Below are positions 1,002 through 24,071 of a stretch of DNA of 24,071 nt, piece by piece (position 1 is the stretch's first letter; every line of letters starts with the position of its first letter). Position numbers and translations under genes: made by a program. The notes beneath the pieces were generated by a model, which was not told the DNA's origin, made no database searches, and saw only the letters and a list, made by a program, of their open reading frames with translations. The DNA lies in NCBI GenBank assembly GCA_025435555.1, contig JAIWWG010000181.1, positions 1 through 24,071 of the forward strand, read 5' to 3'. Source of the stretch: Chytriomyces cf. hyalinus JEL632. Lineage: Eukaryota; Chytridiomycota; Chytridiomycetes; Chytridiales; Chytriomycetaceae.

Positions 1002-1406
1002 TTTTTTTTTTTTTTTTGGAGGTTTTATTCACCCGGTAACCCAGGGTGTTTGGTAATTTTGACCCAAAATAAGCTAAAGTACCAAATCTTTAACCTAAAA
1101 ATGCTAAGTGGAAATCTGAAGAAGGTAGACTAAAAATTGACCCTGAAACGTGTCGGCGACTTGGTGGTTCACCTTGTGCGCCAAGTGGCTTGCAGGGTTG
1201 ACCTTGTGTACTGGGGTGTGCTTGGTAAACCTTGTGTGTCAAGTGATTCAAGATGCGCAAGGGCGGCCAGGAGGTCTCCTTTGGCAATGAACTTGGTCAC
1301 GGTGGGGTCTTTGGGGCCGGTCGTGGGTGCAGTGTGGTACAAGACGAGACGTCGAGTCCCTTCCGCAGAAAGACCGGGGCTGTGCTTGAGGACATTGGCA
1401 ATGCCG
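1002..1406 (-). mobile_element. Short minus-strand polyadenylated retro-insert in telomeric repeats
   Basis: Read on the minus strand, this segment ends with AATAAA (complement of 1024-1029), six bases, then A16 (complement of 1002-1017), and runs directly into CTCTAACCCTA. This is the expected signature of a reverse-transcribed polyadenylated RNA inserted into telomeric DNA. Its other end abuts TTAGGGTTAGGG at 1407. The length is about 400 bp, so it could be a 5'-truncated LINE of the opposite, TRAS-like orientation, a SINE-like non-autonomous element, or a retrocopy of a host 3' UTR. A minus-strand frame from about 1406 down to 1169 is open and of ordinary composition (it includes TVTKFIAKGDLLAALAHLES), but I recognise no domain. 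No target-site duplication can be judged inside repeats. Confidence 0.5.
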
Positions 1407-1429
1407 TTAGGGTTAGGGAGAGTTAGGGG
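1407..1429 (+). repeat. Telomeric repeat tract at the 5' side of element A
   Basis: The tract is TTAGGGTTAGGG (1407-1418), then AGAG, then TTAGGGG (1423-1429). It separates the minus-strand insert from element A. It could be residual telomere or could include the first bases of element A. The two perfect repeats are preceded by CG, as at the other junctions. Confidence 0.8.
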
Positions 1430-2067
1430 ACAAAAAACGAGTGCGGTGTTGGAAAAAAACCAACAGCCCCACCACCACAGCAACAGCCACAGGAACATCA
1501 GACAGGGCTGGCAAGCGCGGCACCTTATTCAGGAAGATCTAGGAAGCACATTGGTGCTCTCGCGGGATCGAAAAAGAGGTAAGTGAGTGAGTTGTTGTTT
1601 ATTAACTACACGCTCTCCACACAGACTCTTTCAAATCGAGTCGGATCGCTTCCAAACCACTTTGGTTGCGTTCTCCGACATCGAAAACCATTGTATCAGC
1701 GGTCTGGGCATATCCCACAACCGCGCGCTCGTATCTTGTTGTTGTCTGTTTTGGTGTCAAACCAAACAAAAACCCAGCAACTCAACCGTCGAACGTCGGA
1801 CGCGCTTCAAATCACACGAGCACGGTCCCACGAACCCATCCAAGCAATCGCAACTGAGATCGGCGGCGTTGTATCGAAATTAAGCACGCTCGGGCGAGTT
1901 TTATTTTTCCCTACAACTAAACCCTCTCGATCTCCACAGGCGACAGCGTCCCAAGCCTGGGATTTACTGTCAGAGTCCGCCAGCCGTATCCGAATACCGC
2001 CGCGGCATCGAATTTTGTGCGACACGCTCGTGTTTCACATTGCGAGTTCTTCTTTCGTTTTTATTGA
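1430..2067 (+). other. Element A leader without any ATG
   Basis: I checked every line on the plus strand: no ATG occurs in any frame from 1404 to 2388, so the ATG at 2389 is the first in any transcript starting after the telomeric tract. Several frames are open here (one from 1583 to 2437), but I recognise no protein in 1430-2067. A candidate short intron lies at 1579-1624. No promoter motif such as a TATA box stands out. The region probably contains the element's promoter and 5' UTR, but that is inferred from position. Confidence 0.6.
1579..1624 (+). other. Candidate 46-nt intron in the element A leader
   Basis: The donor context GAG|GTAAGTGAG fits the eukaryotic consensus. It is followed by TTAAC, a possible branch site (1602-1606), and a pyrimidine-rich stretch ending in CACACAG at 1624. 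The size suits compact genomes. Splicing would not create an ATG, so its role would be in the leader only. A second acceptor-like CTCCACAG lies near 1939. This is pattern-based only and could be chance. Confidence 0.25.
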
Positions 2068-4314
2068 TTGTCCGGAAGGTTCGGACTTTGCTCAAAAGTG
2101 TCTGCTGGGGAAGAATATTCCAAAGCCGAGGCTGCGCTCTGGGAATTCGTCAAAGGAAAACTATTCTGCTCATTCTGTAAGAACGAGAAGGTCCTGGCTG
2201 GCTCCGCAGGCAATCCATCAGCTCTCGGCATCTCAAAACGATCCCTGGCCTGCCGCGCATCAAAGTGTCCAAAACCACGGCTTGTCACCTATATTCTGTC
2301 ATTACCCATTTGTGCGGAAAATCAGGGGTTTATTGAGCGTGCACAAGCAGTTGATCAGTTGTATCAGAAACTCAAAGCCGAGCGAAAAATGGGGTCTCAC
2401 AAAAAAATCGCCATCGCAGCTAAGTCCCATACCTTAGACCGCTTTGGATTCAGTTCCACCTCAAAACAAATCGAAACAGACGACGCGGCTGCACCAACCG
2501 GGATCAGCGGCTCCTCCTCGCATACATCATCAATGCCAGACGCTGGAAATCACACCAACGAATCTGGCGAGTCTACAATCATTTCACCCACACCCACCTT
2601 GCAACAATCCATTATCCCAAACTCCCTCGACCCAGATGCGGTGCTTGCAGAGGCGTCCCAGATCTCGAATTCTCTCGAGCCAGAAGCAGTGCTGGCAGCA
2701 GATTCTCAGATCGCGGATTTTGATTCTGCAATTGATTCAGCCATTGATTCACAGCAGTCCTTATTGATCTCAAAAACGCCATCTCGAAAACGTGCACTCC
2801 CATTTTCGTCACCAATTGACTCACCAATGTCCCCACTCGATTCTGCCCCTCCACCGCCTGATTCTGAAATTGATTCCGAAGACGATGAAGTGCACCGTTC
2901 CAACACGCCAACACCCACTACTGGAGTCGAATCGCTGATGGACGAACGCGATGCCGGGGACCGCATGGCCACCGAAATCGCGGCGCTTTCAGAAATCTTT
3001 GGAATTAATGAAGCTAAGGCCAAAAATCTTAACGATTTTTTCAACATGAAAAACTCTAAAGTAAAAAAAGACCTCACAGATCTGCTCCAACTCGAACTCA
3101 AGAAGAAGGACGCGATCATAAAGCAGCAGCAACAACGAATTACAGAGCTGGAGGCACTGTTGGAGCCGCGCTCATCTCCCAGTGACCACGAACTTGTATC
3201 GGGCCCGCCTCCGCCGCCGAAACCCACAAAACAGCAGACGCAGCAACGGGGATTGGTGAAGGGGAGAGGCGGGAAAGCGGTCCAACGCTCGCGTTCAAAG
3301 AGCGCTGCCTGTGGATCGTATGCAGCAGCTGCAGCAAAGCCAGTTGGGGAAGTTGTTGGAGCTGAGAAGGGGAAGGCACCCGAAAGTGCACGCGCAGTCT
3401 CGAAACCATCCCCACAACAGCAGCAGCAACAACAGCAACAGCAAACAAAGCGCCTGAACTTCGAGCAGAAGATCAGAGCGCGAAAATTGACCCACATTGC
3501 GAATGCCCAGATGGCGTCAAACGCGGATTTTATCGAAAACTTGAAACTGATCCAGGAAAATCGCGCGAATGCACAAACGGCACCAGCTCCTCGGGCGAGT
3601 GTCGTTTATCGAAATATTTTTATTGAAAACCCCCTCGGTAACAGCACGGATCTTGTCACAGATCCATTTGTCAAAATTCGATCCATCTTGTTTGATGTCT
3701 ACAAAATCCCGCGTTCGATTCGTGAGATCTCGTTCGTTGGCATCAAAAAGTCCGTGCTGGAGTTGTTCATCAGGGACTCGGACCTGGATGAGGCCATTGC
3801 GACTCTGTCCAATCCGGGGAGTGGCTTACCAGCAATTTTTATTACCACTAACATTCTCGACACACCCAAACACAGAATCTTCGAAAAGCTGAGTGCAAGT
3901 CGCATGGAGCGAGCAACCATCCTTCGTCGCGGAATCATGCTCGAGCGTGCGATGCGCCAGGGTGTGCGCGTGATGCAGGAGATTGCTCGCTCCAATGTCG
4001 ACGAGTTCACAGCATATCAGATTGAGTCTTGTGCACGTCATATTTATTTCGAAAATAACTTGAATTTTTCTTACCCAAATTCAATCACTCGCACTAACTT
4101 TGAAGAAAAAAAATCCCAAGCACAGGAACGGCTGCCGGAAACTCCAGAACGGATCAAGTTCCCATTGACGGTGCCATCTTCACGTGTTGGTTCCAGTATC
4201 TTGTCGCAGTCCGAGCTCATGGCACAAGCAAAGAACTTTGCTTATGCTAGTCTCAAAGCCCGGCTGCACAGGAAAATCTGGAATCTTAGCGTAGAATCTG
4301 GGGAGTCTCAATGA
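2068..4314 (+). CDS. Element A ORF1: Zn-ribbon-like / coiled-coil / RRM-like RNA-binding protein
   Basis: This is the probable nucleic-acid-binding protein of the LINE particle. The frame opens just after TGA (2065-2067), but its first ATG is at 2389 (641 codons, strong context with A at -3 and G at +4). Upstream, still in frame, is a four-cysteine pattern C-x2-C-x24-C-x4-C (residues 34-67 counted from 2068) with a GNP motif. It resembles the N-terminus of family B ORF1, so translation may also start upstream at a non-AUG codon. From the ATG the order is: a Ser/Thr/Pro/Asp-rich region, a coiled coil (about 220-261), a basic stretch, Q10 (343-352) and an RRM-like region (about 404-480). The protein ends in an ATGA overlap with ORF2. 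I infer RNA binding from family precedent. The start is the main uncertainty. Confidence 0.8.
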   Translation: MSGRFGLCSKVSAGEEYSKAEAALWEFVKGKLFCSFCKNEKVLAGSAGNPSALGISKRSLACRASKCPKPRLVTYILSLPICAENQGFIERAQAVDQLYQKLKAERKMGSHKKIAIAAKSHTLDRFGFSSTSKQIETDDAAAPTGISGSSSHTSSMPDAGNHTNESGESTIISPTPTLQQSIIPNSLDPDAVLAEASQISNSLEPEAVLAADSQIADFDSAIDSAIDSQQSLLISKTPSRKRALPFSSPIDSPMSPLDSAPPPPDSEIDSEDDEVHRSNTPTPTTGVESLMDERDAGDRMATEIAALSEIFGINEAKAKNLNDFFNMKNSKVKKDLTDLLQLELKKKDAIIKQQQQRITELEALLEPRSSPSDHELVSGPPPPPKPTKQQTQQRGLVKGRGGKAVQRSRSKSAACGSYAAAAAKPVGEVVGAEKGKAPESARAVSKPSPQQQQQQQQQQTKRLNFEQKIRARKLTHIANAQMASNADFIENLKLIQENRANAQTAPAPRASVVYRNIFIENPLGNSTDLVTDPFVKIRSILFDVYKIPRSIREISFVGIKKSVLELFIRDSDLDEAIATLSNPGSGLPAIFITTNILDTPKHRIFEKLSASRMERATILRRGIMLERAMRQGVRVMQEIARSNVDEFTAYQIESCARHIYFENNLNFSYPNSITRTNFEEKKSQAQERLPETPERIKFPLTVPSSRVGSSILSQSELMAQAKNFAYASLKARLHRKIWNLSVESGESQ
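4311..4314 (+). promoter_or_regulatory. ATGA stop-start overlap joining A ORF1 and ORF2
   Basis: The ORF1 stop TGA and the ORF2 start ATG share bases in ATGA. In a bicistronic LINE RNA this layout suggests termination-reinitiation, as described for the UAAUG junction of silkworm SART1. Family B has the identical arrangement. Confidence 0.75.
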
Positions 4315-7300
4315 TTGAGACAACCTTTGCTTTATTAAATATTAACAAAAACCTCATAGGCTCGAAAGCACTGCAAGTAGACCAGCTTATCACTAACTTT
4401 TCGATTACTTTTTTCGCACTAACTGAACACACTCTAGCTAGGAACGACACCTGTCCTCTCAAGGGCGTGATTTCTGAATCACGCGGTGAATCCCCACACA
4501 TAGATCGGCTGGGGCGTGACGGGGTGCTCATTGCACGCACCGATGATCGTTTCACCACTAAATCCATCGCAGAACACAATGACGGTCGCTGGTGTGTCTC
4601 GCTCATTGGGGACATGGTGGTCATTGCTGTATATCTTGCGCCTCGCTTGGGGGCACAAGACCTTCTTGATTTCGATATTTTTATTACTTCCATTACACAG
4701 CTGTATCCCAATGCGCCAATGATCCTCATGGGGGACTTCAATGCTCGGGACCAGCAATTCGGAGACCACGCCAACTGTCAAGACCCTGTGCGGCGCGACT
4801 GGATTCGAACCCTGGTCAATGACGGGTTTTGGAACTTTGTGGTGCCAACTCAGGGGAAATGGACATCTGTCACGGAAACAGGTCATGGAATCCCCGATCT
4901 CGTTTTTGTTAATGATGTTGGTAAAAACCGGGTCTCCAACCTCCAGGTGCTTGAACATGATTCAACTGTCTTGTCGGATCACCGCCCCATCATCTTCACG
5001 GTTTTGTATCCAGACGGTCTCGAAAAACCACCATTCACGCGGACGAACATCAGAAACCTCCTCGCAAATTGCGAGGACTTTATTTTGAAATTGGTTCCTC
5101 GCTGCGCCACAATTTCGCAACTTATTGACGCGGAGTTGGTGAATGCAAACAATAAACGCGTCGACAACTCTCCAATTCTCTGGGAAGATCGCCGTGTTAT
5201 CGCAGGTAAAATCGCGACAGAGATTTCGACAGCTCTGGTGGAGTCAGCACGCGAAACAGCGGGAATTTTGCAGTTTCGAGGCGGTTGTATCCATGCGCCA
5301 ATGCGCGAGTCCCACGTTGCGCACATCAGATCCATAGTTGTTGAAGCCTGTCGAAACGCGTCGGAAAGTGCTGTGGGATCTGTTGGCCATGCGGTTCTTT
5401 GGGCGCGTGCTCGAAAATGGAAAGTCATTCTTCGTCGTGCTGAATTACGCTCACGAAAACGTTTATTCAACAAAACAGCCGACGAGAGACTGTACGATCC
5501 AGCCGGTGAAGCCAAGCGACTCGCGAACGCAAGACATAGACGGAACAGGTCCCACTGTGGGTTGGATCCCAACCACATGGACAACCACTGCGCGTATTTT
5601 TCCACAACGTTTGGTGCCCAACCAACGGGTACCGATCAGCCGGATCCTGGTTCTCTGGAGATGACTGACCCCACCCAGCCAATGGTTCCCCTCGAATACG
5701 CAAGCATTACCCCCCTCTTTTCTGAAGAGGACATTGCAGAAGTCCTGAGATGCCAACCACGTGGGAAAGCAACAGGAGATGATGAGGTGTACGGGGAGAT
5801 GCTGGCCTATTCGGCTGAGGAGCTCAAGGAAGTCGTGTGCGAGTTTTTTCGACTGTTGGTGATACTGCGTGTAACGCCACCACAGTGGGGGAAGGCAAAT
5901 GTGGCGCTTGTCTGGAAAAACAAAGGAGACAAGATGGACGTTGCAAACTACCGACCCATCTCCCTTATCTCACGTCTGCGCATGGCTTTTGAAGGGTGTT
6001 TACGACCCAAAGTCATGATACTAACTCATAGGATGCTCGACGTGGCTCAAGGTGGTTTCAGGCCACAACGTTCAACAATGGAGCAGGTTTTCAATCTTCA
6101 TGAACTGATGGTTGCTAATCCCGCCATGGTGACCATCTTGATGGACATCATGGCGGCCTATGATTGTACTAATCGACAGTTGCTCTGGAGTGATCTGGCC
6201 ACCAACCCATTGGACCCACATCCGGAGTTGACAAGGGGAGTCTTGATCCCCATTCTTCGTTCTTTGTTTGATCATTGCGTTGCTCACCTTTTGGTCTTAG
6301 GACACAAAAGTCAAGGTATCCCAGTGCTTCGTGGTCTACTACAAGGAACGGTTCTGGCTCCTCCTTTGTTCAATGTCTCGATCAACACACTCCCCGGGGG
6401 TCTACGTGCCAATTTCCAAGCACGTTGCTTCAAAGTTGGCCCACTGGCTGGACCCAGATTTGATATCAACTCGCTTCTTTTTGCTGATGATACTGCTAAC
6501 CTTGCTAGAATAGATACCGCGCAAGCCCAAGTCGACTTCTGCGTGGCATGGGGCCGCCGTCGGGGTACCACATTTCGTGCTGACAAGACATTTGTGCTGG
6601 CAAGGGACCCAATCCGGCTCACACTGGATGGTGTAGCAGTCCAACAAGTTGATTCAGCTGAGTACCTTGGGGTTTCCATGTCGTACCAAGGTGTTGAAAT
6701 GACTAAGCAACTCGAAAAACGCTGCAGTGACGCCAAGAACACTGCCAACTGGCTCCGGTCCAAAGGCATGAATGCATACGGCTTCCGGTACCTTCAGTCC
6801 CTCCGTTTGTATCCAGTCTTCATTCGGTCTCAGTTGGAGTATGGCATGTGTCTCCGCCCCCTCTCGGACGAGGAAGCACGCACAGCCCAACTCGTTCAAA
6901 ACCAGGTGTTGCGTTTTATTTTCTCTGTTGCTCGAAACACTTCGATTTCAGCACTCCACCAGGTCTCCTCGGTGACACCCATCGCTGCAAGGGCCAAGAT
7001 TCTCAACGCCGGGTTTCTTTGGCGGCTCCATCATTCCACTGACAAGTCCAACCTCACGGTCCACATGTATCGGATGCTACAAGCTCGGATGCTGCACCCA
7101 CCGGACTCCAAGTCCCTGTACGTTGCATCCACGAGGCACAACGAGTTCTGGTCCAGCAACACTGACCTTATGGCCAAGCGCTGGCGGAATCTGTCTGTTG
7201 ATCACCCACTTGTATCCGTCGACCCACTGGTACCCTTTGGCAGGGCTGCAAAACGTGTAGTCTCACTCCCCGACAAGGCAATTGATGAGTACCACTTTCG

Positions 7301-7982
7301 ATCTTTAACTTTAATGCTCCGTGCTTCAAAATCCCGTATCGCACAGATTCTACCCGTACCCAAAACACGTCATCAACGTCATCCATTGGTTCAATCTGGT
7401 GCTTATATCCCTCGTGTTGTCTCAAGACCCATCACACTGTGGCTCCTTGGCTGTGTGGCAACACACCAAGACTGCGTCAACTGCAATGGCTTCAAGAATC
7501 TCTCTCGTCAACATGCTGTCGAATGTGCCCAAGTGGATCCACAAGTCTTCCAGCGGTTGGGGGTGACCAGGCCTATGACTGCAGCAGAAGTTGGTATGGG
7601 GATGACCCAGATCGACCTATGCCTCCGGATCCTCAACTACGAGGAACCGGCGCAGTTGGTGGTGCTGGCCACACTCATTGAACAAGTTCGAACTACTTGC
7701 ACTGGATACCACGCCATCTACGATGCCTCGGATGCTACCCCAGCTCAAGAAATCGAGTTTCTCACACGCGACCTGGAACCCCTTGACGGCGAGGACTTGG
7801 ATCACGAAATTCTCGGACAAGCTACCCAAATTATCGATCTGCATTTTGAACCTCTCGCAGCTGTTCTACCTCCTCGGACCCAAGCTCCAAGGCCAAGACG
7901 GCAAGCTCAAGTCAATGCTCCTCCTCGCGTTCCCCTTCCTGGTGGTTTGGGGATTGGCGGCCGTCCTCGCGGACCCCGCTAA
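4311..7982 (+). CDS. Element A ORF2: APE endonuclease - reverse transcriptase polyprotein
   Basis: This 1223-aa protein should nick target DNA and prime reverse transcription there. The N-terminal APE-type endonuclease (about 1-235) shows the Asn-rich start (LLNIN), Glu39, GDFNAR (141-146), the GIPD Asp196 and SDHRP with His224. The reverse transcriptase (about 480-760) shows NYRPISL, GGFRPQRS, the catalytic Asp612 in MDIMAAYD, LLQGT and FADD (724-727). A C-terminal knuckle C-x2-C-x9-H-x3-C starts at Cys1055. The tail is basic and proline-rich with LPGG...RPRGPR. I see no RNase H domain. All catalytic residues I can check are present and the frame is intact. It starts inside the ORF1 stop. 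Telomeric specificity of the endonuclease is inferred from the flanks. Confidence 0.93.
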   Translation: MIETTFALLNINKNLIGSKALQVDQLITNFSITFFALTEHTLARNDTCPLKGVISESRGESPHIDRLGRDGVLIARTDDRFTTKSIAEHNDGRWCVSLIGDMVVIAVYLAPRLGAQDLLDFDIFITSITQLYPNAPMILMGDFNARDQQFGDHANCQDPVRRDWIRTLVNDGFWNFVVPTQGKWTSVTETGHGIPDLVFVNDVGKNRVSNLQVLEHDSTVLSDHRPIIFTVLYPDGLEKPPFTRTNIRNLLANCEDFILKLVPRCATISQLIDAELVNANNKRVDNSPILWEDRRVIAGKIATEISTALVESARETAGILQFRGGCIHAPMRESHVAHIRSIVVEACRNASESAVGSVGHAVLWARARKWKVILRRAELRSRKRLFNKTADERLYDPAGEAKRLANARHRRNRSHCGLDPNHMDNHCAYFSTTFGAQPTGTDQPDPGSLEMTDPTQPMVPLEYASITPLFSEEDIAEVLRCQPRGKATGDDEVYGEMLAYSAEELKEVVCEFFRLLVILRVTPPQWGKANVALVWKNKGDKMDVANYRPISLISRLRMAFEGCLRPKVMILTHRMLDVAQGGFRPQRSTMEQVFNLHELMVANPAMVTILMDIMAAYDCTNRQLLWSDLATNPLDPHPELTRGVLIPILRSLFDHCVAHLLVLGHKSQGIPVLRGLLQGTVLAPPLFNVSINTLPGGLRANFQARCFKVGPLAGPRFDINSLLFADDTANLARIDTAQAQVDFCVAWGRRRGTTFRADKTFVLARDPIRLTLDGVAVQQVDSAEYLGVSMSYQGVEMTKQLEKRCSDAKNTANWLRSKGMNAYGFRYLQSLRLYPVFIRSQLEYGMCLRPLSDEEARTAQLVQNQVLRFIFSVARNTSISALHQVSSVTPIAARAKILNAGFLWRLHHSTDKSNLTVHMYRMLQARMLHPPDSKSLYVASTRHNEFWSSNTDLMAKRWRNLSVDHPLVSVDPLVPFGRAAKRVVSLPDKAIDEYHFRSLTLMLRASKSRIAQILPVPKTRHQRHPLVQSGAYIPRVVSRPITLWLLGCVATHQDCVNCNGFKNLSRQHAVECAQVDPQVFQRLGVTRPMTAAEVGMGMTQIDLCLRILNYEEPAQLVVLATLIEQVRTTCTGYHAIYDASDATPAQEIEFLTRDLEPLDGEDLDHEILGQATQIIDLHFEPLAAVLPPRTQAPRPRRQAQVNAPPRVPLPGGLGIGGRPRGPR

Positions 7983-8218
7983 TGTTTTTTCTCTTTATTC
8001 TATTGGTCCCATTGTGCGGCCAGGCTGTTGTATACCTGTCGCCAGCTCAAGCCTTTGAGTGTTCACTGTTTTGTGATTTTCGTTTCTACCTTTTATTTGC
8101 CAAAACAACCATCCTCTTTTCACTATACCTTCTTGATATTGACTATCTCTACCGGGTTTTTGTGTTGGGTGGGCTCCTGTTTATGGGTTTTTTCTTCGCC
8201 AAATCTTTTCCCATCTAG
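7982..8218 (+). CDS. Possible small hydrophobic ORF3 of element A
   Basis: An ATG at 7982-7984 overlaps the ORF2 stop TAA (7980-7982) as TAATG, the stop-start arrangement described for SART1. The frame encodes 78 aa up to a TAG at 8216-8218. The start looks like a signal peptide (MFFLFILLVPLCGQA), and two further hydrophobic stretches follow (about 35-50 and 57-73). I recognise no family. The region is T-rich, which by itself favours Phe and Leu codons and depresses stops, so this may be a chance frame in the 3' UTR. Family B has no equivalent after its ORF2 stop. Confidence 0.3.
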   Translation: MFFLFILLVPLCGQAVVYLSPAQAFECSLFCDFRFYLLFAKTTILFSLYLLDIDYLYRVFVLGGLLFMGFFFAKSFPI

Positions 8219-8294
8219 TCATGCGTTTTCTCCTTCTTTCGTGCTGCACGTCCTTTCCTTCTAAAGCGTATTGGAATAAAACCAACTGAAAACG
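7983..8294 (+). other. Element A 3' UTR
   Basis: This is 312 T-rich bases between the ORF2 stop and the telomeric repeats. It contains the possible ORF3 and ends with AATAAA (8275-8280) only 14 bases before the junction. It probably carries the 3' signal recognised by the reverse transcriptase, by analogy with other LINEs. It might also carry promoter activity for the B1 copy just downstream, since B1 has almost no leader of its own. Confidence 0.6.
8275..8294 (+). other. Conserved 20-nt 3' terminus of element A
   Basis: This stretch runs from AATAAA to ...AACTGAAAACG and stops exactly where TTAGGG begins. It matches the family B terminus (14189-14208) at 17 of 20 positions, although the rest of the UTRs look unrelated. 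It is probably the 3' recognition or processing signal shared by both families. The AATAAA-like start may also be a polyadenylation signal. Confidence 0.7.
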
Positions 8295-8306
8295 TTAGGG
8301 TTAGGG
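8295..8306 (+). repeat. Telomeric (TTAGGG)2 between A and B1
   Basis: Two perfect TTAGGG units lie directly between the AAAACG end of element A and the AAAAAGTCTG start of B1. Residual telomere trapped between two insertions is the simplest reading. Confidence 0.92.
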
Positions 8307-8322
8307 AAAAAGTCTGTTTGAA

Positions 8323-10206
8323 ATGTCCACGGTCATCAAAAGCAGCAGCACCAACACCAAGCACCCGTTCGTGATGCTGGAGCTCAACATCGCAAAGCGC
8401 CTCAAGGGGACGGCTCGCTGTCCCGTGGCGGGATGCGGGTCGGCCTCTCTGAAGAGCCTTGGGGTGGGAGGGAATCCGAACCAGTTTGGGTTCTCCACCA
8501 TCCAAATGCAGTGCACCACGTGCACCAAACGTTGCAGACTCAACGCAGCGCTGAAGGCAGGAGGGTCGGCCTCTGCGGACCTGTACGCAGAGTGGGAGAA
8601 GGCTTTCGGTAAGCTGGTCCCAGTCACTTCCACCACAGGCACAGCAGCAAAGCGCCGCCGCCAGAACTCCGAAGCAGACACTGCCACTGCAGTCTCTACT
8701 TCCACACCCAGTGCTTCCCAGAGTCGTCTGATCCAACAGACCCTCTCATTTGCTGCAGCCACCGCTGGCCGCTCTGTGGATCAGCCACCAGCAGGCTCAG
8801 CAGGCTCAGCAAGCACAGCAACAACCTCAACAACCAATCTCACCACCCCAGCTGGTTCCGCAGGCCTTCCACAGAGCGAATTCAGCTTCATGGCACCCGC
8901 GCCAGCCATGCAGACCACCGCTGCAGCCTCCGAAATGTCGCCATCAGTGATTTCGAATGCATTTCCACCCCCTGCTGTGCCTGCCACAGCTGTCAACTGG
9001 CAGCAGCGTGCAGAGGCAGCAGAGGCCGCTACAGCTTCCCTTCAGACGCAGCTGCAGTCCCTGATTGCGCTGCTGGCCCAGCTGGTCACCCAGATGCAGC
9101 AGGGCTCAGTTGGTGTGGGTAAGTCATCAGGCACAGCAAATGAGTGTCAGCCAACTGTGGCGCAGCCATTGAGCACAGCAACAGCCCTCTTGGCTTCCAT
9201 CAGTGCTTCAACTGCTCCCACGCTCGCAGCACCAACTCCCAATGGAGCCCAGTCCACCCACGTGCAGCCCCATGTGCGTACCTCTCGAAAAAGCGGTCGT
9301 GGAGGTCGCACTGGACCTGGAGGGCGTATTGTCCCAGGTGCTGCCCCTGCCTCAACAACAACTGTTTCTGTACCCGTTGCTGTTGAAAACACTTCCACAC
9401 AGGTTGTTGAAGCCGCCTGGTCCACTGTTGCACGTAATGGAACGCGTCGTGCCCCTCCACCATCTTGCGAATCTCGTCAACGCGCGCCGCAAACTCAGCA
9501 GCAGTATGATGAAAAAACACACCGCATGCGTCAAAAGAAGGCATTACAGATGGCGAAAGCTGTCCCTGAACCGAAAAAGTTTGCAGTGATCCGTGTTGAA
9601 CTCCACAGCAGTCGTCAGTTGCGCGGATGTTCCTTCCGGGACCGGAAACATTTGATCGATGCGTTTGTGGGACAGATGGGGGTTCGCCACAATGTGGCTC
9701 TTACCTCATCTATTGGTAACTCCATCATTGAGCTGTATTGTCCGACTGATGTTGTTCTGGAAGTGGTGCGAGTTCTTAGGGAGCGTGGCCAACAAGTCCT
9801 CCTTGCAGCCTTCAACCCACTCATATCCGACATTGACGGAAATCGCCTTGACTCCACCCAGACAGAAAAAGCTGCCAAGCGCCTCGCGTTTTTGTGCAAA
9901 GCCGCACGTACTGTCAATCTCCGTGCTGCCATCCTTGCCGGTGCCTCTCAGCAACTCAAGGAAGCCACGCAGAAAGTGTTTGAAACCATCCGAGGCTCCC
10001 CATCCGACTCCCTTCTTGCACCCCCACGCCCCCACCGTAGCGCGTTTGCGAAATTTGCTGCCCCAGACACACTGTCGCTAACTGATTTTGTGACTCTCGA
10101 CCCAGTTCCGGAATCTACTGAGTTTGTCGATAGTCAAGACGATGTTGCCATGTCTGTGTCCAATCTGGATCTTGGTCCCGCGGCTGACGCCGCCGACCAA
10201 GAATGA
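8323..10206 (+). CDS. Element B copy 1 ORF1: Zn-ribbon-like / coiled-coil / RRM-like RNA-binding protein
   Basis: This 627-aa protein starts at the first ATG, 16 bases after the telomeric repeats (G at -3). Its N-terminus has C-x4-C-x25-C-x2-C (Cys33, 38, 64, 67) with a GNP motif between the pairs, matching the pattern upstream of the first ATG in element A ORF1. A low-complexity Ala/Ser/Thr/Gln region follows, then a coiled coil (about 225-260, LQTQLQSLIALLAQLV), an Arg/Gly-rich segment (about 319-336) and an RRM-like region (about 420-505, with IGNSIIELY). The RNP-forming and RNA-binding role follows from LINE ORF1 precedent. Whether the zinc module helps find telomeres is unknown. The frame is intact and, by eye, encodes the same protein as copy 2. 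Confidence 0.88.
   Translation: MSTVIKSSSTNTKHPFVMLELNIAKRLKGTARCPVAGCGSASLKSLGVGGNPNQFGFSTIQMQCTTCTKRCRLNAALKAGGSASADLYAEWEKAFGKLVPVTSTTGTAAKRRRQNSEADTATAVSTSTPSASQSRLIQQTLSFAAATAGRSVDQPPAGSAGSASTATTSTTNLTTPAGSAGLPQSEFSFMAPAPAMQTTAAASEMSPSVISNAFPPPAVPATAVNWQQRAEAAEAATASLQTQLQSLIALLAQLVTQMQQGSVGVGKSSGTANECQPTVAQPLSTATALLASISASTAPTLAAPTPNGAQSTHVQPHVRTSRKSGRGGRTGPGGRIVPGAAPASTTTVSVPVAVENTSTQVVEAAWSTVARNGTRRAPPPSCESRQRAPQTQQQYDEKTHRMRQKKALQMAKAVPEPKKFAVIRVELHSSRQLRGCSFRDRKHLIDAFVGQMGVRHNVALTSSIGNSIIELYCPTDVVLEVVRVLRERGQQVLLAAFNPLISDIDGNRLDSTQTEKAAKRLAFLCKAARTVNLRAAILAGASQQLKEATQKVFETIRGSPSDSLLAPPRPHRSAFAKFAAPDTLSLTDFVTLDPVPESTEFVDSQDDVAMSVSNLDLGPAADAADQE
10203..10206 (+). promoter_or_regulatory. 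ATGA stop-start overlap joining B1 ORF1 and ORF2
   Basis: The sequence GAATGATC holds the ORF1 stop TGA and the ORF2 start ATG. The same overlap occurs in element A and in copies B2 (16118-16121) and B3 (22029-22032), which points to translational coupling by reinitiation. Confidence 0.78.
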
Positions 10207-14024: not shown

Positions 14025-14208
14025 TCAACCGTCAAGCCCGAACTGACCATACATATCTTATTACCTTTACCGATCATCTGTTTTCTTAACATTTCCGCAC
14101 TTTACTTCTGATTCTTTGGAGTTCTTGAACTTTTTTTGAGTGATTTTTGCTATCTTTCAACCCCGCACTTGTGTTACTGTGTAACTTGATTAAAAGAAAC
14201 TGAAAACG
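14025..14208 (+). other. Element B copy 1 3' UTR and conserved terminus
   Basis: The 184-base 3' UTR ends with ATTAAAAG..AACTGAAAACG (14189-14208), 17/20 identical to the end of element A. There is no poly(A) tail before the telomeric repeats. The ATTAAA may be a polyadenylation signal. Because the next copy begins only 11 bases later with a very short leader, this UTR is also a candidate promoter for that copy. Confidence 0.7.
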
Positions 14209-14219
14209 TTAGGGTTAGG
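14209..14219 (+). repeat. Telomeric repeats between B1 and B2
   Basis: TTAGGGTTAGG followed by A7, against TTAGGGTTAGGG plus A5 at the A/B1 junction. The difference is a G/A boundary shift plus one base and could be sequencing error. Confidence 0.9.
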
Positions 14220-14237
14220 AAAAAAAGTCTGTTTGAA

Positions 14238-16121: not shown

Positions 16122-16888
16122 TCAAAATCGCATTTTCGAATCTCAACGGGCTGTCTGGCAAAGCCGAAGAAGTCCTGAGATTCAAGTCTGCGCAATCTGT
16201 TGACCTTTCTTTAATGGTGGAAACGTGGCTCTCCCCAACATCCTCCATTCCTTTCGACCACACCTATTTAATATCACAAGTACAAACACGGAGGCAATTG
16301 CGGGAGGTCGGCGCAATTTTGGCGGCATTTTGGCGTTCTCAACTGCAACTCCTCTCCCCCCAATTCCGAGTTATCTATGAAGATCCCTTGGGGTTCTATT
16401 GCGCAATGCGCATCTCTGATCTTATCCTCATCACTGCCTACATCCCCCCCTCTGCTGACAATCGGGTAATCGGGGACATGCTTCAAAAAGCGGAAACGTT
16501 ATCTGAAGGCTTTACGTTGCGTTGTCTTTTGGTTGGCGATCTGAACGCACGGATGACGGATGCTGGTGATTCACTCACAAACACACGTGGAACGTATATG
16601 CAGCAGGAACTGTTCAACTCTGGACTTGCGCTTCAAATCCCGGAGTCTGGGAAATGGACGTCGTGGGCTGGTGGTGGTCGAGGGATTCCGGATGTTGTAC
16701 TCTCGAGCTTCCCAGTCTCTAACCTCACAGTTCATGAAGGCGAGTCACTTGGAGGTTCGGACCATCGGCCGCTGACATTTTCTGTGCCACTGGATGTCGA
16801 AACCAAGCCCAAGTCTTTTGCGCGCTGGAATGTTCGTCGCCTCACAACTGCCAAATACCATCAGCGTTTTGCTGAGGAGCTGGAGTCC

Positions 16889-17045
16889 ACGCAGCAGGAG
16901 ATCATGGATCAACTGGAATTGCTGCGAACACGCTTGGAAAGCCCTGCTGTGGGATACGTTGCGGGTGTATCACAGTGCGATGCACACACCGTGGCACCTG
17001 CAGTAGGCGCCAACCCTCCGGGAAGTACTTCCCATGCTTCTCTTG
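16889..17045 (+). repeat. Direct repeat unit 1 in the B2 ORF2 linker
   Basis: Equivalent of the unit at 10974 in copy 1, at the same 276-bp spacing from its partner. It shows that the linker duplication is a fixed feature of family B. Confidence 0.82.
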
Positions 17046-17164
17046 ATCCTGTTACCCACACTGCAGATTGCCCCAGAGCCACCACTCACATGTCTGACAG
17101 TCCTTCTCAGTCCGCTGGTCCATCCCACTCCCATCCACGTTCTGTCGATGCTCCCAACCCATCT

Positions 17165-17321
17165 ACGCAGCAGGACATGTGCTTATGCCTGGAATTGCTG
17201 CGAACGAGCTTTGAAAGCCCTGCTGTGGGGTACATCGCGGGTGCATCACAGTGCGATGCACACACCGCGGTACCTGCAGTAGGCGCTCCCCTCCCGGGAA
17301 GTACTTCTCGCTCCTCGCTCT
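17165..17321 (+). repeat. Direct repeat unit 2 in the B2 ORF2 linker
   Basis: Partner of the unit at 16889, carrying the same diverged positions as in copy 1. Confidence 0.82.
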
Positions 17322-19941
17322 TGAACAATACTCACACACCAAACCGTGCTAGAACTCAAGAGTTGATCAACGAGGCCTGGGAACACTTCCTGTCATGGGT
17401 CCGAAATGCTGCGTCAAAGTCAATTGGTGTCCTCCAAGTCTCTGACCATCTGCCATCGGAGTTTTGGACTGATGAGCTTGAACAAAGTCGGGACAACGTG
17501 CAGCAAGAACTTGCGAACGTGCAACAGGAAATCGAGCGTGGCCAGTTGTCTCGTCTCGAAATCAAACGCCTTGCTTCCGAACTGACCAACACTCAGCGTG
17601 CTTACCGGGCGGATCTGACCACACGCAAGCGCGTGCTCTTCGAAGATGCTGTCGATAAGCTCACAGTCCCACAAAACATGTCCTCGTTCATGCGCATGGT
17701 AAAAGGAGCCAAGTCGCGAAAAGACCGCACTGTCTGCAAACTGGACCCGGCGAAAATCAATGAACACGCTGCCCATTTTCGAACTACCTTTGGAGCACCT
17801 CCGACTGGACATCCCCAACCTGGACCCCCTGCGCTTGAGGAAATCCAGTCGCGTCCAACTCAGGAAGTCTTCAACCCGGATGCGATCATGTCTGCGATTG
17901 CTGGACTCCCACTCGGAAAGGCTACTGGATCCGATGGAATTCCTGCTGAACTCATCAAAGCCGGTGGCGATCTCATGGCTGACGTTCTCAGTGTTTTCCT
18001 GCCCATGGTCCATTGCTGCTGCAACTATTCCATCTGACTGGAGGAAGGCGCTCATTGTGCCAGTCTTCAAGAAGAAGGGATCTGATCAGGACATTGCAAA
18101 CTACCGACCTATTGCACTGACAAGTACGATACGACGACTCTACGAGCGGCTGCTTGTTCCTGAACTTGGACCCGTAATGCAACAACTCGATGACTTTCAA
18201 GGTGGCTTCAGACCCGGTCGGTCCTCGCTCGATCAAGCCATGGTTCTCCACGAAACCCTGAACACCAATGAACATGCTTCGACTATCCTGCTGGACATCA
18301 AAGCGGCATATGACGAAGTCGATCGAAGGGTTCTTTGGCAAATGCTCACACAAGTCTTCGGCCTGGACGAATTCATGCTTGCACGGCTCCAGGATCTTTT
18401 CGATCACAACTCGTGCTGTCTGGTGGTGGCTGGCGTGATTAGTGATCCGATTGACAACGAACGAGGTCTTTTGCAGGGTGCTACTCTGTCCCCGATTTTG
18501 TTCAACTGTCACATCCATGGTCTCTCAATTCGGCTACGTGCTCCTGGAATCCCGCGAATTCGAATCAACGGTATCCATCTCAATAACCTCCTGTTTGCAG
18601 ACGATACGTCCTTGGTAGCTGCAAATCAACATGATCTCGCAGTCCTGCTCCGAACGTGTGAGGAATGGTCCAACACTGTCGGCATCCGGTTCTCGCCATC
18701 CAAGTGCATCTATCTCGGTCCTGTTCCAGCACTACGTGATGTACCTCTCAAGCTCTACAACGTGGACCTTCCATCCCAGCAATGTGCCCCGTATCTCGGC
18801 ATCCCTTTTGGCCAACACGGAATCAACTGGGCTCTGCTGGCAAAGGAACGAACTTCAAAAGCGCGTGGTGTCATTGTGGCGCTGGCATCGGTAGGTATGA
18901 ATGCAATGGGCTGGGCTCCTGCAGCTTCTGTTACTATCTACAGGAGTTTCATTCGGCCGGTCCTTGAATATGGCATTGCTCTCAAGCTCCCATCCGCGTC
19001 CACGCTCAAGTTGTACGAGTCGGTCCAACGTCTTGCACTACGGACTCTCACATCAACACCCCGCAACACGTCCACTGCCGCTCTCCACAAGCTGCTGCAA
19101 GTCGAACCATTCAAACACCGTGCTACCGAGCTCAATCTCATGTGGTCCTCCCGATTGCATAACTCAACTGATCGTTCTATCCCGGCTGTTCGTTTCTGGC
19201 GCGGCGCTCTGCTTGGTGCTGACAAACCATTTCAGGAATGTCTTCCCCGCCTTGCTCGCTCCAACCCACTTGTGACTCATGTGGATGCTAAATGGATTGA
19301 TTTTCGACAGCAACCACTGGTTCCCCCCACCTCCAGCTGAAGTTCCGTTCCGGTACCCTCCGAAGCCAAAACAAGCGCTGTCTGACAATGCTCGCAAGAA
19401 GCTGCGCAAGGAATCCATCGTCAACCTGGACAACAACCTGGACACCATTGCTGGCGCAATCCAAGTCGAAACCAAAGACCCAGTCCGGCCGTATCTGACT
19501 GCCTGCAAGGGAATTGACCGCAAGACACGCAACAACATCCTTCGCTGGACTCTTGGTGCCGTCACCCGACACGAACCGTGCCTCAAGTGCAACGACGTAC
19601 TGACCCGATCCCATGCTGCTGACTGTTCTGGTGCCACTGCTCTCCTGCGCATCAACTGGGACACGCTTGCACCTCCTGCCGGCCGAATGACCTGGCTTGA
19701 TACGATCCTGAATGAAGTCCGGAATACACCGCCCTCCGAAATCGACACGTACACCGAAGTCTCTTCTGCCGTAGCTCTCATCTACACCGAATGTCGCCAC
19801 CTCCAACAGCAAGCCAATGGCTACTGGGCCGAGCCAGATGCACCCGCACGACCACTGCCGCCTCGAAGACCGCGAAATCGCATACCTCAACCCGGGGGAG
19901 CCCCGCTTGGGCGACCACGGCAAAACCCGGAGCCTGGATAA

Positions 19942-20124
19942 TCAACCGTCAAGCCCGAACTGACCATACATATCTTATTACCTTTACCGATCATCTGTTT
20001 TCTTAACATTTCCGCACCTTACTTCTGATTCTTTGGAGTTCTTGAACTTTTTTTGAGTGATTTTTGCTATCTTTCAACCCCGCACTTGTGTTACTGTGTA
20101 ACTTGATAAAAGAAACTGAAAACG
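19942..20124 (+). other. Element B copy 2 3' UTR
   Basis: Essentially identical to the copy 1 UTR apart from T to C at 20018 and one missing T that turns ATTAAA into ATAAA. It ends in AACTGAAAACG at 20124, immediately before TTAGGG. Confidence 0.7.
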
Positions 20125-20136
20125 TTAGGGTTAGAG
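20125..20136 (+). repeat. Telomeric repeats between B2 and B3
   Basis: TTAGGGTTAGAG: one perfect unit and one G-to-A variant unit. The same TTAGAG variant follows the copia fragment at the left of the window. Confidence 0.88.
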
Positions 20137-20153
20137 AAAAAGTCTGTTTGAAA

Positions 20154-22032
20154 TGTCCACGGTCATCAAAAGCAGCAGCACCAACACAAGCACCCGTTCG
20201 TGATGCTGGAGCTCAACATCGCAAAGCGCCTCAAGGGGACGGCTCGCTGTCCCGTGGCGGGATGCGGGTCGGCCTCTCTGAAGAGCCTTGGGGTGGGAGG
20301 GAATCCGAACCAGTTTGGGTTCTCCACCATCCAAATGCAGTGCACCACGTGCACCAAACGTTGCAGACTCAACGCAGCGCTGAAGGCAGGAGGGTCGGCC
20401 TCTGCGGACCTGTACGCAGAGTGGGAGAAGGCTTTCGGTAAGCTGGTCCCAGTCACTTCCACCCACAGGCACAGCAGCAAAGCGCCGCCGCCAGAACTCC
20501 GAAGCAGACACTGCCACTGCAGTCTCTACTTCCACACCCAGTGCTTCCCAGAGTCGTCTGATCCAACAGACCCTCTCATTTGCTGCAGCCACCGCTGGCC
20601 GCTCTGTGGATCAGCCACCAGCAGGCTCAGCAGGCTCAGCAAGCACAGCAACAACCTCAACAACCAATCTCACCACCCCAGCTGGTTCCGCAGGCCTTCC
20701 ACAGAGCGAATTCAGCTTCATGGCACCCGCGCCAGCCATGCAGACCACCGCTGCAGCCTCCGAAATGTCGCCATCAGTGATTTCGAATGCATTTCCACCC
20801 CCTGCTGTGCCTGCCACAGCTGTCAACTGGCAGCAGCGTGCAGAGGCAGCAGAGGCCGCTACAGCTTCCCTTCAGACGCAGCTGCAGTCCCTGATTGCGC
20901 TGCTGGCCCAGCTGGTCACCCAGATGCAGCAGGGCTCAGTTGGTGTGGGTAAGTCATCAGGCACAGCAAATGAGTGTCAGCCAACTGTGGCGCAGCCATT
21001 GAGCACAGCAACAGCCCTCTTGGCTTCCATCAGTGCTTCAACTGCTCCCACGCTCGCAGCACCAACTCCCAATGGAGCCCAGTCCACCCACGTGCAGCCC
21101 CATGTGCGTACCTCTCGAAAAAGCGGTCGTGGAGGTCGCACTGGACCTGGAGGGCGTATTGTCCCAGGTGCTGCCCCTGCCTCAACAACAACTGTTTCTG
21201 TACCCGTTGCTGTTGAAAACACTTCCACACAGGTTGTTGAAGCCGCCTGGTCCACTGTTGCACGTAATGGAACGCGTCGTGCCCCTCCACCATCTTGCGA
21301 ATCTCGTCAACGCGCGCCGCAAACTCAGCAGCAGTATGATGAAAAAACACACCGCATGCGTCAAAAGAAGGCATTACAGATGGCGAAAGCTGTCCCTGAA
21401 CCGAAAAAGTTTGCAGTGATCCGTGTTGAACTCCACAGCAGTCGTCAGTTGCGCGGATGTTCCTTCCGGGACCGGAAACATTTGATCGATGCGTTTGTGG
21501 GACAGATGGGGGTTCGCCACAATGTGGCTCTTACCTCATCTATTGGTAACTCCATCATTGAGCTGTATTGTCCGACTGATGTTGTTCTGGAAGTGGTGCG
21601 AGTTCTTAGGGAGCGTGGCCAACAAGTCCTCCTTGCAGCCTTCAACCCACTCATATCCGACATTGACGGAAATCGCCTTGACTCCACCCAGACAGAAAAG
21701 CTGCCAAGCGCCTCGCGTTTTTGTGCAAAGCCGCACGTACTGTCAATCTCCGTGCTGCCATCCTTGCCGGTGCCTCTCAGCAACTCAAGGAAGCCACGCA
21801 GAAAGTGTTTGAAACCATCCGAGGCTCCCCATCCGACTCCCTTCTTGCACCCCCACGCCCCCACCGTAGCGCGTTTGCGAAATTTGCTGCCCCAGACACA
21901 CTGTCGCTAACTGATTTTGTGACTCTCGACCCAGTTCCGGAATCTACTGAGTTTGTCGATAGTCAAGACGATGTTGCCATGTCTGTGTCCAATCTGGATC
22001 TTGGTCCCGCTGACGCCGCCGACCAAGAATGA
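20154..22032 (+). pseudogene. Element B copy 3 ORF1, frameshifted
   Basis: This is the same RNA-binding protein as copy 1, with three single-base indels. A C lost at about 20187 puts everything after residue ~11 out of frame. A C gained at 20462-20464 restores the frame, so the four-cysteine module is scrambled. An A lost from a run at 21696-21699 (A5 to A4) shifts the frame again after the RRM-like region. A 3-base loss near 22009 removes one Ala before the end. The ATGA junction with ORF2 is preserved (22029-22032). The changes fall in short runs, so sequencing error is a serious alternative. Confidence 0.8.
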
Positions 22033-22799
22033 TCAAAATCGCATTTTCGAATCTCAACGGGCTGTCTGGCAAAGCCGAAGAAGTCCTGAGATTCAAGTCT
22101 GCGCAATCTGTTGACCTTTCTTTAATGGTGGAAACGTGGCTCTCCCCAACATCCTCCATTCCTTTTCGACCACACCTATTTAATATCACAAGTACAAACA
22201 CGGAGGCAATTGCGGGAGGTCGGCGCAATTTTGGCGGCATTTTGGCGTTCTCAACTGCAACTCTCTCCCCCCAATTCCGAGTTATCTATGAAGATCCCTT
22301 GGGGTTCTATTGCGCAATGCGCATCTCTGATCTTATCCTCATCACTGCCTACATCCCCCCCTCTGCTGACAATCGGGTAATCGGGGACATGCTTCAAAAA
22401 GCGGAAACGTTATCTGAAGGCTTTACGTTGCGTTGTCTTTTGGTTGGCGATCTGAACGCACGGATGACGGATGCTGGTGATTCACTCACAAACACACGTG
22501 GAACGTATATGCAGCAGGAACTGTTCAACTCTGGACTTGCGCTTCAAATCCCGGAGTCTGGGAAATGGACGTCGTGGGCTGGTGGTGGTCGAGGGATTCC
22601 GGATGTTGTACTCTCGAGCTTCCCAGTCTCTAACCTCACAGTTCATGAAGGCGAGTCACTTGGAGGTTCGGACCATCGGCCGCTGACATTTTCTGTGCCA
22701 CTGGATGTCGAAACCAAGCCCAAGTCTTTTGCGCGCTGGAATGTTCGTCGCCTCACAACTGCCAAATACCATCAGCGTTTTGCTGAGGAGCTGGAGTCC

Positions 22800-22956
22800 A
22801 CGCAGCAGGAGATCATGGATCAACTGGAATTGCTGCGAACACGCTTGGAAAGCCCTGCTGTGGGATACGTTGCGGGTGTATCACAGTGCGATGCACACAC
22901 CGTGGCACCTGCAGTAGGCGCCAACCCTCCGGGAAGTACTTCCCATGCTTCTCTTG
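22800..22956 (+). repeat. Direct repeat unit 1 in the B3 ORF2 linker
   Basis: Third occurrence of the linker unit, 276 bp before its partner at 23076, as in the other copies. Confidence 0.8.
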
Positions 22957-23075
22957 ATCCTGTTACCCACACTGCAGATTGCCCCAGAGCCACCACTCAC
23001 ATGTCTGACAGTCCTTCTCAGTCCGCTGGTCCATCCCACTCCCATCCACGTTCTGTCGATGCTCCCAACCCATCT

Positions 23076-23232
23076 ACGCAGCAGGACATGTGCTTATGCC
23101 TGGAATTGCTGCGAACGAGCTTTGAAAGCCCTGCTGTGGGGTACATCGCGGGTGCATCACAGTGCGATGCACACACCGCGGTACCTGCAGTAGGCGCTCC
23201 CCTCCCGGGAAGTACTTCTCGCTCCTCGCTCT
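23076..23232 (+). repeat. Direct repeat unit 2 in the B3 ORF2 linker
   Basis: Partner of the unit at 22800. The frameshift of copy 3 ORF2 lies just downstream of it. Confidence 0.8.
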
Positions 23233-24071
23233 TGAACAATACTCACACCCAAACCGTGCTAGAACTCAAGAGTTGATCAACGAGGCCTGGGAACACTTCC
23301 TGTCATGGGTCCGAAATGCTGCGTCAAAGTCAATTGGTGTCCTCCAAGTCTCTGACCATCTGCCATCGGAGTTTTGGACTGATGAGCTTGAACAAAGTCG
23401 GGACAACGTGCAGCAAGAACTTGCGAACGTGCAACAGGAAATCGAGCGTGGCCAGTTGTCTCGTCTCGAAATCAAACGCCTTGCTTCCGAACTGACCAAC
23501 ACTCAGCGTGCTTACCGGGCGGATCTGACCACACGCAAGCGCGTGCTCTTCGAAGATGCTGTCGATAAGCTCACAGTCCCACAAAACATGTCCTCGTTCA
23601 TGCGCATGGTAAAAGGAGCCAAGTCGCGAAAAGACCGCACTGTCTGCAAACTGGACCCGGCGAAAATCAATGAACACGCTGCCCATTTTCGAACTACCTT
23701 TGGAGCACCTCCGACTGGACATCCCCAACCTGGACCCCCTGCGCTTGAGGAAATCCAGTCGCGTCCAACTCAGGAAGTCTTCAACCCGGATGCGATCATG
23801 TCTGCGATTGCTGGACTCCCACTCGGAAAGGCTACTGGATCCGATGGAATTCCTGCTGAACTCATCAAAGCCGGTGGCGATCTCATGGCTGACGTTCTCA
23901 GTGTTTTCCTGCCCATGGTCCATGCTGCTGCAACTATTCCATCTGACTGGAGGAAGGCGCTCATTGTGCCAGTCTTCAAGAAGAAGGGATCTGATCAGGA
24001 CATTGCAAACTACCGACCTATTGCACTGACAAGTACGATACGACGACTCTACGAGCGGCTGCTTGTTCCAA

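Follow-up and report, generated by a model that had tools for sequence, protein, structure and literature searches.

Telomere-associated LINEs flanked by 11-bp target-site duplications near contig ends of the chytrid Chytriomyces cf. hyalinus JEL632

Contig JAIWWG010000181.1 of the chytrid fungus Chytriomyces cf. hyalinus JEL632 (24,071 bp; hereafter the window, or C92) carries one copy of a long interspersed nuclear element (LINE), A, and three copies of a second, B, with just 11 bp of telomere-type sequence (TTAGGGTTAGG or TTAGGGTTAGA) at each of the three in-array junctions. These spacers are 11-bp target-site duplications and not telomere tracts, and junctions of this kind were read on 36 contigs of the assembly (37.78 Mb, 242 contigs). 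We hold with good confidence a system in which A, B, a third family D and a gag-only partner F insert into the telomeric repeat with an 11-bp duplication, and a further element, E, would attach at free ends, in a host that has kept its telomerase gene. The proposed mechanism has good support for A/B/D/F and is plausible for E.

The window is a complete contig, and its array is described as far as it was assembled (Table 1). Open reading frames (ORFs) and repeat comparison agree on one A and three B copies, all on the + strand and head-to-tail, as a sequence-only reading of this contig had stated; B copy 3 is ended by the contig end. That reading had also placed TTAGGG repeats between the copies. 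We found TTAGGGTTAGGG-type sequence on the + strand at 1407 and 8295 (both exact) and at 14209 and 20125 (one mismatch each); shuffles of the window give an expectation of 0.02 such matches, and none of 100 shuffles reached four. The telomeric sequence is thus present at all four positions, but separation of the copies by TTAGGG tracts was ruled out by the 11 bp found at the three in-array junctions. Position 1407 does open a telomere run before A, albeit a degenerate one (1407–1429), and this run is itself preceded by an antisense piece of E (1002–1406). Over 5.9 kb, B copies 1 and 2 are separated by a single mismatch and five gap columns.

We compared 80 A/B/D/F 3' junctions on the 36 contigs with TTAGGGTTAGG: 37 were exact, 22 had one mismatch, seven had two and 14 had three or more. 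Hence 59/80 lie within one mismatch and 66/80 within two, where the chance for a random 11-mer is 1.3e-4. Many of these junctions were found with a pattern of element tail plus TTAGGG, which biases the set towards telomeric sites. A B 3'-end search with a query that stops short of the junction does not share this bias, although it favours near-identical copies. It gave 42 3' ends, of which 37 junctions were read, 32 of them within two mismatches of the telomeric 11-mer. Of the remaining five, two are telomeric but carry an indel or a duplicated tail; the other three are non-telomeric (a locus present on both C202 and C231, plus C32). The sequence-only reading had asked whether most copies are flanked by non-telomeric DNA; in neither set are they.

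The composition of the 80 needs some care. Among 69 exact tail matches, 57 junctions fall within the 80 and 12 outside; C95:2263 and C96:7016 were untyped and also lie outside, and C57 (a chance match) and C21 (tail not reached) were left out. C13 was counted by its tail alone, and as its 731 bases have no other element similarity it may be a stub or a chance match. Typing by tail rests on the last ~22 nt, and among the 11 junctions called F, C10:46816, C198 and C203:91947 have an A-like 3' untranslated region (UTR) upstream.

Insertions outside telomeric sequence allow both flanks to be compared. In four independent cases with readable flanks an 11-bp duplication was present in all four, each time with a different word: an A insertion on C221 (TTAGGGAGTAA), the B insertion at the C202/C231 locus (TAAGGGTTAAC), a B insertion on C32 (TCACTCTTAGA) and an F insertion on C199 (TTTTGGTTAGG). 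In a fifth, an A insertion on C4, the flanks agree over the nine bases available, the element start itself being outside the read. The left flanks of C2, C12, C49, C150, C180, C198 and C210 ended inside the element and are outside this count; duplications outside telomeres cover A, B and F, D having no non-telomeric insertion among the both-flank reads. The spacers in arrays also vary with the contig. TTAGGGTTATG stands at 7/7 such junctions on C10, TTAGAGTTAGG at 3/5 on C5 and TTAAGGTTAGC at 3/3 on C203; within contigs, 31/33 pairs of non-canonical spacers match (shuffled mean 2.2, largest value 11 in 5000 runs), and all 31 matching pairs lie between different neighbours. Since the spacer varies with the contig and not with the family, it is not part of the element. 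As the spacers are duplicated target, the A/B/D/F arrays would form by insertion into telomeric DNA, which explains their tight head-to-tail packing; attachment at the tip was ruled out for these families by orientation and duplications.

The junction TTAGGG might instead be an encoded telomeric 3' tail of the element RNA, and TTAGG or TTAGGG does follow ACTGAAAACG even in interstitial copies (C2, C4, C12, C150, C180, C210 and C221). We regard this as improbable and rejected it on the left flanks and the spacer variants: the 11 bp recur ahead of the element wherever its left flank was read, including words such as TCACTCTTAGA and TAAGGGTTAAC that do not start with TTAGGG; the variants follow the contig; and C32, C134, C199, C202/C231 and C228 have no TTAGG directly after the tail.

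Two further observations concern individual junctions. At C96:7003 (locus L017) the element tail is duplicated, ACTGAAAACGTTA-ACTGAAAACGTTAGGG, which suggests template slippage as reverse transcription starts. C202 and C231 (L112, L113) carry the same B insertion between the same flanks, as uncollapsed alleles or a segmental duplication.

Across the genome, the tail followed by TTAGGG occurs exactly at 69 places on 24 contigs, and with up to two mismatches at 111 places, compared with 39 for the reversed control. All 14 contigs with at least two exact matches carry them on a single strand, and 55/69 exact matches lie within 35 kb of the contig end faced by the element 3' end. The other 14 are on C10 (six), C66 (three), C198 (two), C2, C4 and C221 (one each); C66 is a 49-kb contig that carries tail matches over most of its extent. 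Among the large contigs that end in A/B/D/F elements are C68 (508 kb) and C111 (993 kb). The order at the end of C111, from non-LINE DNA through 21 perfect TTAGGG repeats to a 5'-truncated B and the contig end, shows insertion into telomere. The 12-mer TTAGGGTTAGGG occurs 57 times in the whole genome, against eight for its reversed control, and an 18-mer of the telomere repeat occurs at five places on four contigs (control 0); of these four, only C94 and C209 carry the run at the contig end. The view of these elements as telomere-associated LINEs with an apurinic/apyrimidinic endonuclease (APE) in stacked arrays was thereby borne out: they lie mostly near contig ends and are polarised towards the end. 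That they add kilobases to chromosome ends holds as a description of structure. We infer that the elements are active at present and contribute to chromosome length; they may also have a maintenance function.

Several features of the contig ends were seen alongside. On C209 (193400–193648; L043, L133) a B copy is broken within ORF2 and telomere repeats stand directly on the break, resembling a healed chromosome end. The non-LINE stretches that adjoin the arrays of C113 (L160) and C89 (L073) agree at 30/31 bases, so that these contig ends may have a subtelomeric repeat in common. Telomere runs that are short and strongly degenerate (TTAAGG, TTAGAG, TTAGGA, GGTAAAG) occur at element boundaries (L125, L126, L127, L071, L074, L159), in contrast to perfect repeats elsewhere; they could be traces of telomerase healing whose first rounds are error-prone, or of wear.

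By their predicted proteins A, B and D are APE-type non-LTR (long terminal repeat) retrotransposons, with endonuclease and reverse transcriptase (RT) in ORF2. In A and B the start of ORF2 overlaps the stop of ORF1 as ATGA. The A ORF2 matches Exo_endo_phos_2 (9e-11) and RVT_1 (3.6e-15) in Pfam, and its C-terminal CCHC-like residues were spotted by eye. Family D (C66:8052-13493; L044) is built alike: over most of its length the D ORF2 shares 41% identity with that of A, and it aligns with the A and B endonuclease and RT, with GDxNAR, SDH and FADD residues in common. A low-confidence model of the predicted B endonuclease domain (pLDDT, the predicted local distance difference test, 61) has structural matches among AP endonucleases and among the endonucleases of TRAS1, L1 and R1; a Neisseria AP endonuclease ranks first and the TRAS1 endonuclease (1wdu) second for this weak model, and a phmmer search of the domain against the PDB gave no relevant match.

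F measures 2.33 kb between spacers in two fully read copies (C94, C10) and has one ORF1-like frame of 694 amino acids (aa); no RT was found in its frames, and it carries gag only. The gag proteins of the four families align with 25 invariant columns, including an N-terminal cysteine set, the others being 20-35% identical to F. The F gag gave a weak model (pLDDT 59), which suggests a coiled coil and an RRM-like domain; the RRM-like matches are weak, and no structure match of the model reached E 0.001 or below. The four families share the tail ...ACTGAAAACG, which stands directly before the target in the junctions read, and none of these 3' junctions has a poly(A) tail. Copies truncated at the 5' end occur on C94, C111, C125 and C238 and fit target-primed reverse transcription. 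At least 20 full-length, stop-free B ORF2 frames were counted among 40 matches listed, 18 of them 100% identical (a lower bound, with 36 of 290 candidates scored), and the D ORF2 has 13 equal-scoring matches. The ratio dN/dS (non-synonymous to synonymous substitution rates) in ORF2 was 0.17 over 587 codons between A and a 74%-identical relative, and 0.10 over 448 codons in a second A-relative comparison; ORF2 of A relatives is under purifying selection.

Beside these four families, C10 and C203 (L055, L057, L085, L155) carry a further A-like family with the 5' start GGGAAAGGTTAAGG and long ORFs of its own; an ORF2 fragment of it is 74% identical to A. Near the start of the gag frames of A (window 2068), D and F (L065; L044:85) an ATG is lacking, whereas B has one; this suggests non-AUG initiation, an intron or a spliced leader.

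The observed anatomy, orientation, 11-bp duplications and recurrence on many contigs can be put together as follows. The sense strand of A/B/D/F is the G-rich strand and the 3' end points to the chromosome end, so first-strand synthesis must start from the C-strand at ...CCCTAA-3'. The A/B/D endonuclease would nick the C-strand of telomeric or telomere-like DNA, presumably just before TTAGGG, and the CCCTAA-3' end would prime copying of an RNA ending ...ACTGAAAACG. With the second strand cut 11 bp further on, the insertion would leave 11 bp of telomeric target duplicated, one copy on each side. The duplicated TTAGGGTTAGG would then provide a fresh target, and serial insertion into the rebuilt target would give head-to-tail arrays with 3' ends towards the chromosome end. 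F, which has no RT, is presumably moved in trans by A, B or D enzymes, given the shared tail, the 11-bp duplication on C199 and its place in the arrays.

A number of observations weigh against this account. The 14 junctions beyond two mismatches of TTAGGGTTAGG, together with the interstitial or non-telomeric copies (C2, C4, C12, C180, C198, C199, C202/C231, C203, C210 and C221), mean that targeting is a preference for TTAGGG-like sequence. An old B copy on C134 (83%) shares the right flank of C202/C231 and has no matching 11-mer where B similarity begins; we take it for a rearranged form of that locus, yet it remains a case with no duplication and lowered our confidence slightly. One truncated-A junction occurs twice on C10 (46816 and 52944), so arrays may also grow by recombination, which surely contributes; copies this similar are expected from recombination or gene conversion no less than from recent insertion. 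In its strong form, this alternative derives most array growth from a few old insertions, multiplied by unequal recombination or break-induced copying, with little new retrotransposition. The almost identical copies and the repetition of a 5.9-kb period would fit it, as would the expansion and contraction of MoTeR arrays in this manner (PMC7367193). It is nevertheless unlikely as the main process: neighbours differ in family, order and 5' truncation point, each of the 31 matches between non-canonical spacers is found with different neighbours, 11-bp duplications also flank single insertions that lie outside arrays, and ORF2 of A relatives is under selection. Far less probable still is false chaining of repeats by the assembler. 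The window is almost all repeats, and B copies 2 and 3 have small indels typical of a low-quality consensus, yet junctions of one type, in variants particular to single contigs, recur on 36 contigs, and non-LINE DNA adjoins arrays on C111, C113, C60 and C238.

E differs from the other families. It is antisense to A/B/D/F, with 24 matches in the genome, and has a poly(A) tail. The copy on C111 has an ORF1 of 360 aa and an ORF2 of 799 aa, with RVT_1 as the sole Pfam match in ORF2; methionine is absent from the first 118 residues of that frame. The RT is LINE-type, with L1 and R2 as best PDB matches. Pfam found no endonuclease in ORF2 or ORF1 of the C111 copy, nor in the pieces of the C193 copy (two copies examined), and E thus appears to be an RT-bearing element with no detected endonuclease. 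We read 22 distinct E poly-T junctions, having dropped C76:35203 as the repeat of another flank (TTAGGGTTAGGG). Sixteen follow telomere-like sequence, against 3.3% of control 25-mers, and 14 follow an exact TTAGGG rotation (0.9% in the control); C167:334849 follows TAGGG only, and five follow clearly non-telomeric DNA (C193:243231, C177:932192, C76:27550, C204 and C210). In the copies on C193, C177 and C76 the 3' side adjoins this non-telomeric DNA and the 5'-truncated side bears telomere-like repeats, with no return to other sequence before those repeats. Two consecutive E copies are joined by short, mostly degenerate runs on C167, C177 and C232; eight contigs stop inside E (C177, C193, C167, C232, C70, C76, C117 and C137); and on C94 E continues into eight TTAGGG repeats.

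Elements of the HeT-A type are antisense and 5'-truncated, and the anatomy of E is plausibly that of HeT-A-like end attachment capped by telomerase. The poly(A) RNA of E would be copied from a free G-strand 3' end, placing antisense, 5'-truncated copies end on end that are then capped by short, often imperfect telomere runs. Some copies sit awkwardly with this: a short one at C232:601077 runs into other sequence on its 5' side, those on C165 and C182 lie far from the contig end they face, those on C204 and C210 lie 19 and 27 kb from it, and some are interstitial. The main rival is that E, like TRAS, inserts within telomere repeats by an undetected endonuclease, and that telomere on the 5' side only reflects breakage healed by telomerase. 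The opposite orientation of E and A/B/D/F recalls that of TRAS and SART, several E copies have telomere-like sequence on both sides, and healing onto a broken B copy is seen on C209. We consider this rival doubtful, given RT alone in the 799-aa ORF2, nothing endonuclease-like in the C111 ORF1, and the E pairs joined by short runs on three contigs.

The host encodes a TERT RNA-binding domain on C172 (PF12009, 1e-11; control genomes 0/14), with RT-like motifs seen by eye in neighbouring frames, and the match indicates that it keeps a telomerase gene. Chitin synthase (18 matches) and radial-spoke genes (12 matches, with radial-spoke genes on C231 and C182) are also present; taken with the TTAGGG repeat, they suggest that the fungus is flagellated.

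Amongst the parallels offered in the sequence-only reading, SART fits A/B/D/F by telomere-repeat insertion and orientation; HeT-A/TART and MoTeR are oriented the other way and would fit E instead. SART1 (Bombyx mori, R1 clade) is likewise a two-ORF APE-type LINE with a G-rich sense strand and a C-strand nick, in a host that keeps telomeric repeats (PMC7265360, PMC4700185). It depends on a poly(A) tail to insert accurately, and on at least three TTAGG repeats. A/B/D/F, by contrast, lack poly(A), show an 11-bp duplication and mostly have fewer than two repeats at an array junction; they also include 5'-truncated copies and a partner that carries gag only. TRAS1, also an R1-clade element of Bombyx mori, has the telomere-specific APE endonuclease matched by the weak B model and is oriented as E, but E has no detected endonuclease and the orientation of A/B/D/F is opposite.

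The fungal MoTeR/FoTeR/CNL1 group has a restriction-like endonuclease and a single ORF. A and B have an APE and two ORFs, D aligns with them, and the 3' ends of A/B/D/F face the contig end; the MoTeR-like orientation, with the 5' end to the tip, is found in E alone. MoTeR1/2 of Magnaporthe resembles the present system in its head-to-tail arrays at fungal telomeres, with short TTAGGG tracts between, truncated copies and a non-autonomous partner, MoTeR2, whereas MoTeR1 has a putative restriction-like endonuclease and points its 5' end to the chromosome tip (PMC7367193). FoTeR of Fusarium is also a fungal telomere element, but its 3' ends are followed by TAACCC, opposite to A/B/D/F; its authors were unable to identify duplications, as telomeric flanks hide them (PMC12857005). 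CNL1 of Cryptococcus forms subtelomeric arrays and reportedly prefers its own copies near telomeric repeats as insertion sites; it belongs to the R2 superfamily with duplications of 0-13 bp (PMC12810828), compared with APE and 11 bp in the four cases read here.

F, gag-only and sharing its 3' end with the autonomous A/B/D, corresponds to a HeT-A-type partner: in Drosophila HeT-A/TART/TAHRE, gag-only elements stand beside gag-plus-RT elements, and the elements form chains at chromosome ends, as does E (PMC4700185). Unlike HeT-A, F is oriented and inserted like A/B/D and is not attached at the tip, and E has its own RT; Drosophila lacks telomerase, whereas this host has a TERT RNA-binding domain. 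Athena of bdelloid rotifers is endonuclease-deficient at telomeres, as E appears to be, but is Penelope-like (PMC3846280), whilst the RT of E is LINE-type. Penelope elements occur at mushroom chromosome ends (PMC7473861), and the excerpt of a report on the Bd chytrid assembly describes plain TTAGGG ends and no telomeric LINE (PMC11797018). Two reviews served as comparison sources (PMC4700185, PMC10088271). Among the matches listed from open-licence PMC, no title or abstract beginning names an APE telomeric LINE in a fungus, which is not proof of absence.

Taken further, a telomerase-positive fungus may build its ends by two opposed systems, the SART-like A/B/D with F, lengthening the ends as they rebuild their 11-bp telomeric target, and the endonuclease-less E, with E priming on the exposed G-strand and healing eroded or broken ends in alternation with telomerase. 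We put this forward tentatively, as a possibility that falls a little short of an even chance. The fungal telomeric LINEs of the papers compared here, MoTeR, FoTeR and CNL1, group with restriction-endonuclease/R2 elements, and the orientation of MoTeR and FoTeR is opposite to that of A/B/D/F. If true, two-system ends would be an independent intermediate state towards telomeres of the Drosophila type, and a single genome would have converged on the silkworm solution as well as on that of the fly, with telomerase kept. It would also open the question of by what route retrotransposons gain a part in chromosome-end maintenance, or perhaps take it over.

Table 1. Features of the window (contig C92)
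Feature	Position	Strand	Basis or remark
Copia-type LTR retrotransposon fragment	2..990	+	Pfam RVT_2 1.4e-31, match covers 2-757 only; proximal neighbour, outside the system
Short telomere-like run TAGGGTTAGAG, joined to E	991..1001	+	Sequence read
LINE E copy, 5'-truncated, 405 bp, antisense	1002..1406	-	97% match to E
Poly(A) tail of the E copy (poly-T)	1002-1017		Adjoins telomere-like run
Degenerate telomere run TTAGGGTTAGGGAGAGTTAGGGG	1407..1429	+	Sequence read
LINE A, near full length, end ...ACTGAAAACG	1430..8294	+	5' start compared with A copies on C5, C10, C137
A ORF1, gag-like, 748 aa	2068..4314	+	Frame with no ATG near start
A ORF2, 1223 aa, predicted APE endonuclease, RT and C-terminal CCHC-like residues	4311..7982	+	
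11-bp target-site duplication TTAGGGTTAGG	8295..8305	+	
LINE B copy 1, full length	8306..14208	+	
B ORF1, gag-like, 627 aa	8323..10206	+	
B ORF2, 1273 aa, predicted APE endonuclease and RT	10203..14024	+	Pfam RVT_1 1.9e-25, Exo_endo_phos_2 7.3e-9
11-bp target-site duplication TTAGGGTTAGG	14209..14219	+	
LINE B copy 2, ORF2 frame disrupted by small indels	14220..20124	+	
11-bp target-site duplication, variant TTAGGGTTAGA	20125..20135	+	
LINE B copy 3, ended by contig end at 24071	20136..24071	+	

Rfam and tRNA scans of the window gave no matches. Within B ORF2, between the endonuclease and the RT, a 119-bp stretch is duplicated (10998-11116 and 11274-11392, 88% identical, 276 bp apart), and the duplication is present in all three B copies of the window. 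The 5' UTR of A contains a possible spliceosomal intron at 1578-1625 (GGTAAGTGAG ... CACACAG), which would be odd for an element copied from RNA; its donor-like part is also present in an A relative on C95 (L069).

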